Shown here: positions 2 through 2,305 of the stretch, in pieces
Layout of the letters: each line of letters begins with the position of its first letter
How positions within the stretch are numbered: the first letter of the stretch is position 1
Virus record (IMG/VR): IMGVR_UViG_3300031758_000645
Span: 1-22,110 of that record
Reading direction: 5' to 3' (one strand)
Length of the DNA: 22,110 bases
From: a virus
Position numbers and translations under genes: made by a program
The notes under the pieces: generated by a model
Database searches by the model: none
Told to the model about the DNA's origin: nothing
What the model saw: the letters and a program-made list of their open reading frames with translations, nothing else

Positions 2-91
2 AAGCGCGTGGTGGCCGACCGCGCCGTCGTGGAGCAGTTCTTTGCTTCACGACGGGCGGAAGGCCTCAAGGCGATCACGCGGCGCGGTTGA
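2..91 (+). CDS. 3' end of a convergent plus-strand gene, product unknown
   Basis: An open frame enters from the left edge and ends at TGA (89-91). It encodes the last 29 residues of a protein ending in LKAITRRG. Most of its codons end in G or C (aag, cgc, gtg, gcc, gac), as in the clear genes of this window, so it looks like real coding sequence. It converges on the integrase gene and overlaps it by 17 bases (75-91). The fragment is basic (several Arg and Lys) and probably helical, but too short to assign a family. It could be the end of an early phage gene on the opposite arm, or a host gene if the phage boundary lies here. The start and most of the gene are outside the window. Confidence 0.5.
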   Translation, partial: KRVVADRAVVEQFFASRRAEGLKAITRRG

Positions 92-1133
92 TCGGCACCA
101 CGTTCCCAGCCGCTGCCATCTGTTCGTGGTAGCGGCGGATCGCCACGGGGCCTTGGCGGATGTCGCGCGGCCGCAGATGGGTGTACCGCTGGAGCATCTT
201 CAGGTCTTTATGGCCAGAGAAGAGCCGCACCTCGGTAATGTCGAAGCCCATCTCGAACAGGCGGCTGATCGCTTCGTGGCGGATGTCGTGGACGTGGATG
301 TCCTCGACCCCGGCGCCCTCGGCGAAGTCGGCGAAGGCGTGTGAGATAGTGTTCGGCTCGTACGGGAAGATGAACTCGCCACCGCGCGGCTGGCGCTGGA
401 TGATCTCCCACGCGGCCTCGAGCAGCGGGGCCACCTCGTCGGTCTTCTTCTTCGGGTGCTTGCGCTGGCGGATGACGACCGTGCGGTCTTCCTCGTTGAG
501 GTCGGCCCAGCGCAGCCGGCACGTCTCGCCGATGCGGAACGCGCTGTGCAGCTGGAAGTAGAGGATGTCGCGGTACGGCAGGCGGGGCGCCACCATCGCG
601 GCCAGGATGGCCTCAAGCTCGGCGTCGGTCACCCGGCGGTCGCGGCTCTCGGACTCGCCAGTGATGCTGTGCTTGCGCATGAACACCGATGCCTTCTCAA
701 AGGCCTTGAGGTTGGGCGTGGCGTCCCACAGCGTCTCGGCCGTCGTCAGGACGGTGCGGAACGAGATCACATACCCCTGGCGGGTGCTGGGGCAGACCTT
801 CATGCCGGCCACCCAGTCGACCAGCACCTCGGTGGTCAGTTCCTCGAGGCGCTTCTCGCCGATCTGCTCGGACACCCGGCGCAGCAGCAAGTCCTTCTTG
901 TGCGAGATCGGCTTGCCGATCTGGGCCATGCGCTGGACGTACTTGGTGATGGTGTCGGCCACGGTGGCCTTGTCGGGTGCGCCAGCCAGCGCGCCGATGG
1001 ACATCTCGTACTCGGTCTGGTCGGCCCACCGCTGGGCCACTGCCTTCTGCTTGAAGGTCTTGGAAATCGGCTTCTGACCCTTCTTGCGGATCAGGACGCG
1101 GTAGCTGTCCCCGCGCTTCTGGATAACGGCCAT
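75..1133 (-). CDS. int: Tyrosine-family site-specific integrase
   Basis: A 352-aa tyrosine recombinase that should catalyse integration and excision of the phage genome by strand exchange at att sites. The C-terminal catalytic domain shows the family residues: Arg200 in HSAFRIGE, a Lys-rich beta-hairpin near 225-230, His282 and Arg285 in HDIRHE, His308 in SGHKD and the nucleophile Tyr317 in QRYTHL. The N-terminal part (about 1-55) resembles the arm-binding region of phage integrases (RGDSYRVLIRKKGQ). Residues about 58-150 would be the SAM-like core-binding domain. The start at 1133 is chosen because AAGGAG (1141-1146) lies 7 nt upstream; an in-frame start at 1187 would add 18 residues through that site. 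It is the last minus-strand gene and points the same way as the late genes. Length and motifs are complete, so it is probably active. Confidence 0.95.
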   Translation of the reverse strand: MAVIQKRGDSYRVLIRKKGQKPISKTFKQKAVAQRWADQTEYEMSIGALAGAPDKATVADTITKYVQRMAQIGKPISHKKDLLLRRVSEQIGEKRLEELTTEVLVDWVAGMKVCPSTRQGYVISFRTVLTTAETLWDATPNLKAFEKASVFMRKHSITGESESRDRRVTDAELEAILAAMVAPRLPYRDILYFQLHSAFRIGETCRLRWADLNEEDRTVVIRQRKHPKKKTDEVAPLLEAAWEIIQRQPRGGEFIFPYEPNTISHAFADFAEGAGVEDIHVHDIRHEAISRLFEMGFDITEVRLFSGHKDLKMLQRYTHLRPRDIRQGPVAIRRYHEQMAAAGNVVPINRAA

Positions 1134-1140
1134 CGGTACA

Positions 1141-1146
1141 CTCCTT
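1141..1146 (-). promoter_or_regulatory. Shine-Dalgarno site of the integrase
   Basis: AAGGAG on the minus strand, 7 nt before the ATG at 1133. It decides the start of the integrase. Its first three bases lie inside the 3' arm of the 11-bp inverted repeat (1144-1154), so a folded leader would partly cover it. Confidence 0.7.
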
Positions 1147-1221
1147 GGTACAGTGCCAGCGTTGGCTGGCGTGTTGCACAGTGGCAAATCAACGACTTAC
1201 CAATGGTGCTACTGTACCAAG
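1144..1221 (-). repeat. Inverted repeat in the integrase leader
   Basis: The 11-bp sequence CTTGGTACAGT (1144-1154) is matched perfectly by its reverse complement ACTGTACCAAG (1211-1221), 56 bp away. In the mRNA the arms could pair and hide part of the ribosome site. In DNA they could be paired binding sites for integrase, excisionase or a repressor. The core GGTACA occurs again at 1135-1140, so three copies of this hexamer (two direct, one inverted) lie within 90 bp of the integrase start. The repeat is seen directly; its role is inference. Confidence 0.6.
1155..1170 (-). other. Small hairpin nested in the integrase leader
   Basis: GCCAGC and GCTGGC form a perfect 6-bp stem around a 4-nt loop, directly next to the inner edge of the 1144-1154 repeat arm. 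It could stack on the larger stem in a structured 5' leader. It has no U-tract, so it is not a typical terminator. Confidence 0.45.
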
Positions 1222-1238
1222 AAACCTGACGTTTACAA
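1211..1238 (-). promoter_or_regulatory. Weak candidate promoter for the integrase
   Basis: On the minus strand TTGTAA (1238-1233) and TACAGT (1216-1211) are separated by 16 nt. Each matches four of six bases of the sigma-70 -35 and -10 consensus. It lies about 80-105 bp upstream of the integrase start, in the only sizeable gap of the window, and the -10 overlaps the distal arm of the inverted repeat. The match is poor and could be chance; integrase could instead be read from the late transcript. Confidence 0.22.
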
Positions 1239-1343
1239 CCCCCAAGTTGATGATTTGTGACGAAAAATGGGGTGCTTCCTCATGCCCTTCATCATGGGCA
1301 GGATTTCGTTGTAGATCAGGTGTTTAAGAGGCCGATGGTTCAA
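1233..1343 (-). CDS. Possible 36-aa small protein
   Basis: A short frame starts with TTG overlapping the stop of the metallophosphoesterase as TTGA, the same coupling style as the GTGA and ATGA junctions elsewhere here. A GAGG lies about 9-12 nt upstream. It would encode a basic 36-residue peptide containing HLIYNEILPMMKGMRKHP. Eighteen central codons end in G or C almost without exception; the last dozen do not. It could instead begin at one of the internal ATG codons. No family is recognised. It may be a real small gene, a decayed gene end, or chance; the codon bias is the main argument for it. Confidence 0.3.
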   Translation of the reverse strand: MNHRPLKHLIYNEILPMMKGMRKHPIFRHKSSTWGL

Positions 1344-2305
1344 TTCTGGTACACCACCTCGCCGCGGAAGTAAGCGGCACCGTCGTGAACCTCGACGAGT
1401 TCAGGCGGCAGCAGCTTGCCACCGCGGAAGGTCAGCACGGCGAAGCCCGAGGTGTGCGGCGTCGGGTTGTTCTCGCCGTAGTCGAACTGCGGCGCCAGCG
1501 GATCCGACAGAGTGCCTGTGTCGACGCCGTAGCGGCGGCCGTTGTAGTCGGCCCAGGGCGTCACGGCCAGCCGGTGAAGGTGGCCAGTGACGATGTTCAT
1601 GCCGCTCTTCAGGGTGTTGTTGTAGGTGGCGTGGATGCCGTTGTGGTAGCGGTGCTTGATCATCACGTTGCCGTTGAGGCGCAGCGACCAGGCGAAGTCC
1701 CAAGAACTGAACTTGTCCTCGAGCCGCTCGACCAGCCCCTCGTACTCGCCAGCGATGGCGGCCAGCTTCTTGTCGAAGCGGGTGTCGTGGTTGCCGACGT
1801 TCCAATCCAGCGCGCAGCCACGCGGGGCCACAAGCTCAATTTCGTGCATCCGCTCTTGGCAGGCCTCGATCTCTTCCTGAAGCGAAGGAACCTTGGCCCA
1901 GCCGAGTGGCGGGTGCGTCGAGATCCGGCCAGCGCCGTCGAAGATGTCGCCGTTGGCGACGATGCGCCGGGGCTTCAGGTCGCGGATCAGTTCCAGCAGC
2001 GCGTTGTTCGCCACGGTGCGCGGCTGAGGCCAGAAGTGTGCGTCGGAGAACACGATCACCGTGCCTTCGTGGACTTCGGCGGTGCGCTCACGGGCGTAGG
2101 CCCGCGCAGCGTCGGTCGTGTAGACGTTGGCTGCTTCGCCGCCCGCGCTGGTCGGGATCGACGGCAGGATGACGCCCTTCTCCGCGAGGCGCTTGCGGCG
2201 GCCGTAGATCCCGCGGACGTGGAGGCCGGTCAGCTTGGCAACTTGGGCGGGTGAACAGTCTGCGCGGTGCCACGCGGCGATAAACTCGTCGTCAGTCAGT
2301 GCCAT
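1340..2305 (-). CDS. Metallophosphoesterase (calcineurin-like) with N-terminal HTH-like segment
   Basis: A 321-aa protein of the calcineurin-like metallophosphoesterase superfamily, whose members hydrolyse phosphomonoesters or phosphodiesters with two metal ions. Metal-site motifs appear in order: Asp88 and His90 in FSDAHF, Asp120 in NGDIFD, Asn172-His173 in GNHD, a later His in KHRYHN (218 or 221), and His242/His244 in TGHLHR. All are intact, so it should be catalytic. Residues about 5-45 (SPAQVAKLTGLHVRGIYGRRKRL) look like a small helix-turn-helix, as if the enzyme also binds DNA. It lies 18 bp after the ejection-protein gene and before the integrase leader. The substrate (nucleic acid, nucleotide or protein phosphate) cannot be told from sequence. 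The Shine-Dalgarno site is weak. Confidence 0.85.
   Translation of the reverse strand: MALTDDEFIAAWHRADCSPAQVAKLTGLHVRGIYGRRKRLAEKGVILPSIPTSAGGEAANVYTTDAARAYARERTAEVHEGTVIVFSDAHFWPQPRTVANNALLELIRDLKPRRIVANGDIFDGAGRISTHPPLGWAKVPSLQEEIEACQERMHEIELVAPRGCALDWNVGNHDTRFDKKLAAIAGEYEGLVERLEDKFSSWDFAWSLRLNGNVMIKHRYHNGIHATYNNTLKSGMNIVTGHLHRLAVTPWADYNGRRYGVDTGTLSDPLAPQFDYGENNPTPHTSGFAVLTFRGGKLLPPELVEVHDGAAYFRGEVVYQN

Follow-up and report, generated by a model that had tools for sequence, protein, structure and literature searches.

Introduction

Temperate phages must hold integrase low in lytic growth, and the known control of integrase acts mostly at transcription or message decay. In phage T4, as described in PMC2988022, RNA structures sequester the ribosome sites of I-TevI, other homing endonucleases, soc, e and 39, and a late promoter yields short, open messages of I-TevI. 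For KplE1 intS, attL overlaps the integrase promoter and the gene is autoregulated; the account in PMC2951348 includes a mapped sigma-70 promoter and measured repression. Integron attC sites act on downstream cassettes as ribosome obstacles (PMC8876359), and dusA-associated integrases have a dusA core (PMC4482086).

Here we describe the leader of a tyrosine integrase gene in a viral sequence of 22,110 bases, an entire IMG/VR virus record that we refer to as the window. Like the T4 I-TevI type (PMC2988022), the leader is predicted to form a stable structure that masks the Shine-Dalgarno site (SD) of a phage DNA-mobility enzyme in long transcripts initiated upstream. I-TevI as described there has a late promoter, whereas no sigma-70-like promoter was found in the window leader, and the structure of the window leader, unlike that of I-TevI, is predicted to be a three-way junction and coincides with a probable attachment site. 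KplE1 intS (PMC2951348) is alike in having integrase-type sites and an attachment region directly upstream of int, features that we recognise in the window by sequence only, and by analogy the window integrase could act on its own gene. Relative to the KplE1 system as reported, the window leader lacks a recognised promoter and has a conserved RNA fold in addition. As with integron attC (PMC8876359), a recombination-linked sequence is predicted to fold in the mRNA and affect translation, but in the window it is the SD of the integrase itself that is predicted to be paired. The dusA-associated integrases of PMC4482086 resemble the window in leader layout and may do so in tree grouping; their core is a dusA core, whereas the window core does not score as one. 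Among the matches listed, our search of the open-access PMC literature showed no integrase leader of this kind.

The integrase gene and its neighbours

Ten minus-strand frames of the window were scanned, and portal, tail and ejection genes were among them. Record L002, the twin of the window (99.94% identity over 5,133 bases), extends into a convergent helicase and DNA polymerase A. The integrase matches Pfam Phage_integrase at 9.3e-27 and carries an integrase annotation in PHROG as well. The tyrosine recombinase active-site residues expected of the dusA-associated class are present in the window protein, and R200, K225, H282, R285, H308 and Y317 are invariant in 12 of 12 rows of one alignment (A2) and 10 of 10 of another (A5). 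In the AlphaFold model the N-terminus consists of three strands and a helix, which we take to be an arm-binding type of domain. A Foldseek comparison of the model returned lambda Int (1z1b) among several matches, at 5e-9 with a low TM-score of 0.39.

Upstream of the integrase on the same strand is a metallophosphoesterase gene, the supposed source of read-through transcripts into the integrase; 206 nt separate its stop from the integrase ATG. The phosphoesterase frame runs into a pair of predicted integrase sites (window 1337-1356) and stops at the TGA found there. Its C-terminus reads VVYQN, where by eye the relatives L006 and L014 have DAV. A possible explanation is insertion of an int-attP unit at the end of the phosphoesterase gene. 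Among 80 loci compared for phosphoesterase synteny, this type of integrase was seen, over the stretches of DNA covered, only in the twin, and the comparison was uninformative.

An inverted repeat within a predicted three-way junction

The initial annotation described an inverted repeat in the integrase leader that could hide the ribosome site, and its observations on the sequence hold. The perfect 11-bp repeat is present at 1144-1154 and 1211-1221, the nested 6-bp hairpin is GCCAGC-4-GCTGGC at 1155-1170, the gene-proximal arm includes AAG of the SD AAGGAG (1146-1141, minus strand), and TGTACC/GGTACA occurs at 1135-1140, 1147-1152 and 1213-1218. A fourth copy, at 1348-1353, lies beyond the stretch covered by that annotation. 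As a bare repeat the structure is not rare at the scale of the window, because windows shuffled in two-base blocks (20 shuffles) average 0.65 perfect repeats with arms of at least 11 and a spacer of at most 80, against one in the window.

The leader as a whole stands out more clearly. Folding it against shuffled sequence, a check suggested by the annotation, gave -50.8 kcal/mol against -33.75 kcal/mol (z -4.55), and none of 200 shuffles was as stable. The inverted repeat belongs to two larger elements, a predicted three-way junction and a probable attP arm (Table 1). In a long RNA most of the SD is predicted to be paired, with a mean unpaired probability of 0.145, and the closing stem is predicted to pair the start codon too; in short RNAs starting at -40 or -48 the mean rises to 0.83 and 0.68, respectively.

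Table 1. Coordinates in the window of the genes, predicted RNA elements and predicted DNA sites of the integrase leader
Feature	Positions	Strand	Basis or remark
Tyrosine integrase gene (352 aa)	75..1133	-	ATG at 1133-1131
Metallophosphoesterase gene, upstream of integrase	1340..2305	-	PHROG 221 at 8.4e-22
Conserved RNA leader, three-way junction predicted to pair SD in long transcripts	1134..1245	-	Fold z, covariation
P1 closing stem, 5' strand (arm 1211-1221 plus two pairs)	1211..1223	-	Window MFE
P1 closing stem, 3' strand (arm 1144-1154 plus two pairs), enters SD	1142..1154	-	
P2 middle hairpin of junction	1182..1202	-	Four both-side pair changes among relatives
P3 inner hairpin GCCAGC/GCTGGC	1155..1170	-	Compensatory GCCAAC/GTTGGC in ten relatives
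Shine-Dalgarno site AAGGAG	1141..1146	-	
Predicted integrase site (TGTACCG) adjoining start codon	1130..1143	-	Matrix 11.05, rank 4
Predicted integrase site CTGTACCAAG	1142..1155	-	Matrix 12.64, rank 3; 12 bp from 1130..1143 site
Predicted integrase site, inverted orientation	1210..1223	+	Matrix 15.70, rank 2
Exact IHF consensus AATCAACGACTTA, within hairpin P2	1187..1199	+	
IHF-like site, one mismatch to consensus (by eye)	1243..1255	-	Aligns with relatives' IHF-like sites
Probable attP core word ATGATGAA	1288..1295	-	Aligns with dusA-type core of relatives
Weak IHF-like site left of core	1311..1327	-	Alignment only
Outer predicted integrase site pair, TGTACC and degenerate TGAACC 11 bp apart	1337..1353	-	Overlaps end of upstream gene

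The fold is conserved and covaries in close relatives

A DNA pattern scan for both arms retrieved L256/L262, with an integrase 80% identical to that of the window and the arms again 56 nt apart. Searching with the window integrase and the 80% integrases added ten further relatives at 63-65% identity, and a final scan of viral sequences with ten of the twelve integrases as queries returned no additional close relative. The resulting close set holds 12 records, the window or its twin included, with integrases 63-100% identical, and falls into group A (the window and L262), group B (L264-L267, L269, L270 and L272) and group C (L263, L268 and L271).

The leader fold is strong in all 12 records, with z-scores from -3.84 to -5.89 (-4.70 for L262). 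In every one of the long leaders the SD is predicted to be masked by stable structure, its mean unpaired probability being 0.145-0.208 in the long RNA as against 0.53-0.68 in the short RNA. The register differs: in the window AAGGA pairs with UUCUU as a straight continuation of the stem, and in groups B and C GGAG pairs with CUUU (UUUU in C) past a bulge. When the upstream part alone was shuffled, the SD was still equally masked in 0 to 10 of 50 shuffles, and masking alone is therefore weaker evidence than covariation.

Covariation statistics were computed on 10 distinct rows with 320 paired-position cells. Pairing is kept in 94.7% of the cells, compared with 90.9% in shuffled alignments (reached by 0 of 500). 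Five pairs changed on both sides, at alignment columns 44-64, 45-63, 48-60, 49-59 and 80-87, where shuffling gave 2.3 (4 of 500 reached five); cells with both-side changes numbered 13 against 3.1 (0 of 500), and the covariation score was 0.198 against 0.134 (0 of 500). One measure points the other way: further pair types numbered 13, with a shuffled mean of 14.8, and 494 of 500 shuffles reached that count. Structures slid along the alignment were just 32-41% paired, a control that favours the fold because the structure was derived from the same sequences. With 12 loci and 10 distinct rows the independent events are few; two or three splits may be the origin of all five covarying pairs.

The changes are spread over the junction. 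Helix P1 (columns 27-34 with 93-100) has every position paired in the 10 distinct rows. The inner hairpin reads GCCAGC/GCTGGC in group A and GCCAAC/GTTGGC in groups B and C, and the middle hairpin varies in sequence by group with its hairpin form kept. G-U accounts for 43 of the 303 paired cells (A-C on the opposite strand), which fits an RNA of the minus strand rather than a DNA cruciform. Between the window and L262, two of ten changes break a pair of the window fold, where random placement gives a mean of 5.8 and is as low in 2% of cases. The leader is also more conserved than the coding start, since 78 of its 112 columns are invariant among the 8 distinct leaders of groups A and B, compared with 122 of 297 in early int. 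All 12 rows retain GTGCAACACGCCA, partly unpaired within the junction. The antisense strand folds fairly well also (z -1.9 to -5.2).

We regard the fold itself as well supported. Compensatory changes, which the initial annotation had proposed to look for in the leaders of related phages, are present at 63-80% integrase identity. The translational mask that it suggested gains from the fold and SD pairing in 12 of 12 close records and from this covariation, but neither the mask nor the conservation of the arms with compensatory changes extends generally to integrases about 30-45% identical.

The same DNA has the layout of a probable attP arm

A site matrix was built from 13 chosen relatives with the window left out, and all positions on both strands were scored. 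Its four best positions in the 22 kb of the window are 1343-1356 (rank 1, score 17.56), 1210-1223, 1142-1155 and 1130-1143, spanning 227 bp, and the SD sits between the two tandem TGTACC words. Four hits score at least 11.0, against a mean of 1.0 and a maximum of 6 per shuffled window; the strength of these hits is their clustering. In nine of nine group A and B loci the elements occupy fixed positions relative to the gene: outer site -220, core -162, inverted site -85, IHF -66, tandem sites -19 and -7. Given a layout common to relatives and the ranking by a matrix that omitted the window, the stretch looks like an attP arm, and the leader DNA of 9 of the 12 records probably forms the arm of attP on the integrase side. 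Of the annotation's second suggestion, binding sites for integrase, excisionase or repressor, it is the integrase part that the independent matrix and the attP-like layout support.

Two other candidates in this stretch were discarded. Near 1340, GGTTCAATTC is similar to a T-loop, as in a tRNA-like core; however, these bases belong to the outer site pair and to the last part of the phosphoesterase gene, and ARAGORN reported no tRNA. A leader peptide was considered for a frame of 17-20 codons; its counts of variable columns at the three codon positions are 9, 8 and 6 of 17, and no ribosome site was seen. In nine of nine group A and B loci the frame (window 1233-1295, minus strand) runs from the core word to the RNA fold.

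A host and attB search at E 1e-60 over 784 sampled genomes (399 + 385) returned only the known 39% relative, the RNA model had no match in the three genomes searched with it, and PF01207 was not found in seven phage records, which are possibly fragments.

Integrons recombine through folded single strands. An integrase that acted in the same manner on this leader, folded as single-stranded DNA, would account for arms that are themselves integrase-like words. Hindrance of translation by attC hairpins in mRNA, as described in PMC8876359, would fit as well. The core word, however, is at -162, outside the fold (-112 to -1), which is not the attC arrangement; the 43 G-U cells suit RNA and not DNA, and the IHF and site pairs suit a double-stranded attP. 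We consider recombination through a folded strand here extremely improbable, and keep to the reading of a double-stranded attP arm that also encodes an RNA.

Many distant leaders repeat words of their own

The distant set comprised integrases about 30-45% identical from viral contigs and from genomes, with at least 80 matches each. Its 164 starts gave 136 leaders, that of the window among them, once those with less than 250-260 bases upstream, with non-ACGT letters or with identical sequence were dropped. Most of the 16 chosen nearest leaders, aligned for layout, share that of the window: at the far end a TGTACC-type pair near -200, an IHF-like site, a central element and a second IHF-like site, and at the near end a further pair near -83/-73 (in some) and a tandem pair immediately preceding the start codon. 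Among the matches listed, 71 of 136 leaders repeat an exact 6-mer at 9-13 bp in their last 45 nt, where shuffles give 5.8 (maximum 13) and a control inside int gives 7. The exact IHF consensus occurs in 33 of these 136 leaders among the matches listed (shuffles 1.5, maximum 5). By their sequence, the repeated words just before the int start are probable arm-type sites. Across L085-L170 and L171-L250 the words differ; those repeated at 9-13 bp, mostly 11-12, are 6-9 nt long and belong to the individual leader, among them TGTACC, GTGCTAC, GCACAC, TTACGGA and GTGATAC.

Two other counts discriminate less. Inverted 7-mer pairs are found in 82 of 136 leaders against 31 shuffled (maximum 44), but also in 49 inside int. 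For the best 8-mer word the mean number of copies is 4.10 in leaders, against 3.23 in shuffled sequence and 3.49 within int; in 22 of 136 leaders the count is above that of every one of 60 shuffles. The window has four copies, a number that 12 of 60 shuffles attain. In 59 of the 136 leaders the last 110 nt contain a perfect inverted repeat whose arms are 8 or longer, with spacers of 4 to 82, and by eye many of these arms contain the leader's own word. Word similarity tracks the N-terminal 50 residues of the integrase given the catalytic part (0 of 500 permutations) and not the reverse (447 of 500), with the caveat of genetic linkage, because the N-terminus is nearest the leader; the middle part of the integrase correlates with leader words too.

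The fold is far less widespread than the words. Besides the window, 8 of 135 leaders among the matches listed have a fold z of -4 or below, and the mean is -0.95. Pairing of the start region in 138 leaders (the window included, close relatives excluded) is no higher than that with shuffled upstream sequence (Wilcoxon p 0.74). Covariance model R1 retrieved from 181 sources only the window and its twin L091 (1e-33), the next hit having an E-value of 0.66. Distant integrases often keep repeated site words without this RNA. The strongest fold of a distant leader (z -7.0) is that of Pseudomonas phage vB_PaeP_Tr60_Ab31 (L090); in this phage AAGGGCTCCAGA, a perfect repeat of 12 bp, is found 70-104 nt before int.

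These data bear on a rival account, in which the repeat is nothing but two inverted arm-type sites in the P' arm, bound integrase represses int as in KplE1 intS, and the fold is a by-product. It would explain why the leave-window-out matrix places its top four hits on the four sites, why tandem words and perfect inverted repeats are so frequent in distant leaders, why the words follow the N-terminal rather than the catalytic part, and why the model shows N-terminal strands and a helix; in one alphaproteobacterial subgroup, the flanks of the inverted words pair about as often as when re-dealt, which is also in its favour. Against it are the covariation and the G-U pairs retained in the middle and inner hairpins, which lie outside the TGTACC words, and the state of group C described below. 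DNA sites by themselves seem to us an unlikely explanation of the leader, and we prefer one that includes the RNA.

Relation to dusA-associated integrases

Many distant loci have a dusA gene that starts from the central element and runs in the opposite direction. A dusA motif is present in 78 of 164 starts among the matches listed, some of which lack upstream sequence, and ten of ten chosen divergent frames were Dus by Pfam. A divergent dusA at the central element fits the dusA-associated integrases as described in PMC4482086. In Shewanella phage vB_SspM_M16-3 (L254) positions 1-29, annotated att, contain by eye the dusA-like codons IAPMLDW in the opposite direction, about 170 nt upstream of its integrase.

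A tree was built from 57 rows of the family, taken as the 46 nearest and every sixth one after them with short and identical rows removed, and from three phage integrases, which were meant as an outgroup and fell inside the tree. In the tree without Rci, the window integrase groups with 20 viral integrases (support 99/96) on a long branch of 0.92, and six of those 20 have a dusA-type core by the pattern used. The window core itself does not score as a dusA core: compared with the 5' end of dusA its best score was -0.51, and 5 of 60 shuffles scored as high.

Group C retains the fold after loss of most DNA sites

In all three group C records the outer site, core word, inverted site and IHF site are absent, and neither CATGATGAA nor the IHF consensus was found elsewhere in their loci of 5-7 kb. 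Both tandem words remain in two of the three and one in L271, and 130 nt separate the end of the upstream frame from int. The fold is nonetheless retained, with A-U pairs that became G-C, and where the inverted site GGTACA reads GGTATA pairing is preserved via wobble. L263, L268 and L271 have intact integrase active-site residues and no attP core in the surrounding 5-7 kb.

Retention of the fold after loss of the core, IHF and outer sites counts against the DNA-site account set out above. No other observation argues as strongly as group C for an RNA maintained in its own right.

Promoters and a proposed mechanism

Among the 12 close leaders, scored for sigma-70-like sites only, no promoter rose above chance. 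The best site of the window scores 7/12 and is reached by 48 of 100 shuffles; the best one inside the arms, in L262, scores 9/12 and is reached by 9 of 100. A TTGTCA-17-TANANT element at about -60 occurs in 8 of 34 leaders scanned, all of one clade, and each instance is reached by 1-15 of 100 shuffles. Because no sigma-70-like promoter exceeds chance, the short message of a switch driven from an internal promoter was not seen. With no visible site of this type, int may depend on upstream transcripts, and the RNA may have taken over its control.

The lack of a sigma-70-like internal promoter would also suit a regulated RNA of another kind, a switch responsive to a protein, a ligand or temperature that recognises the invariant GTGCAACACGCCA and for which read-through is irrelevant. 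That element, kept in 12 of 12 rows and partly unpaired in the junction, speaks for such a switch. Rfam, on the other hand, gave no gathering-score match in the window, L262, L265 or L268, and nothing in the analysis identified a ligand or protein. We think a switch of this sort distinctly improbable.

The reading we favour, which is also the simplest and which we hold to be probable, is that the integrase leader works in cis as an RNA brake on translation of int from long read-through messages and overlaps attP. Long transcripts, for example read-through from the same-strand upstream gene, would include the whole leader, of which about 110 nt would fold into the three-way junction, its closing stem pairing the SD and, in the window, the start codon too. 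With the SD paired, little integrase would be made. The SD could be freed in a shorter transcript lacking the 5' arm, or by a factor that opens the fold. The RNA brake and an action of integrase on its own leader are compatible, and both layers could operate.

Implications

If the proposal is true, integrase would have an added layer of control, in the form of a leader, conserved and covarying, that overlaps attP and conceals the integrase ribosome site. A broader scenario strikes us as evenly poised between right and wrong. In it, a single stretch of 110 nt holds two overlapping codes, a double-stranded attP arm with its integrase and IHF sites and an RNA brake on the same integrase; the ancestral int was driven by a promoter and controlled through sites, like that of some 38-45% relatives, and the lineage moved to RNA control with no visible promoter; and one branch kept the RNA after its attachment site was lost. 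That branch, group C, is a natural experiment separating RNA function from the DNA sites, and in the other close relatives recombination and its control may share one short stretch.
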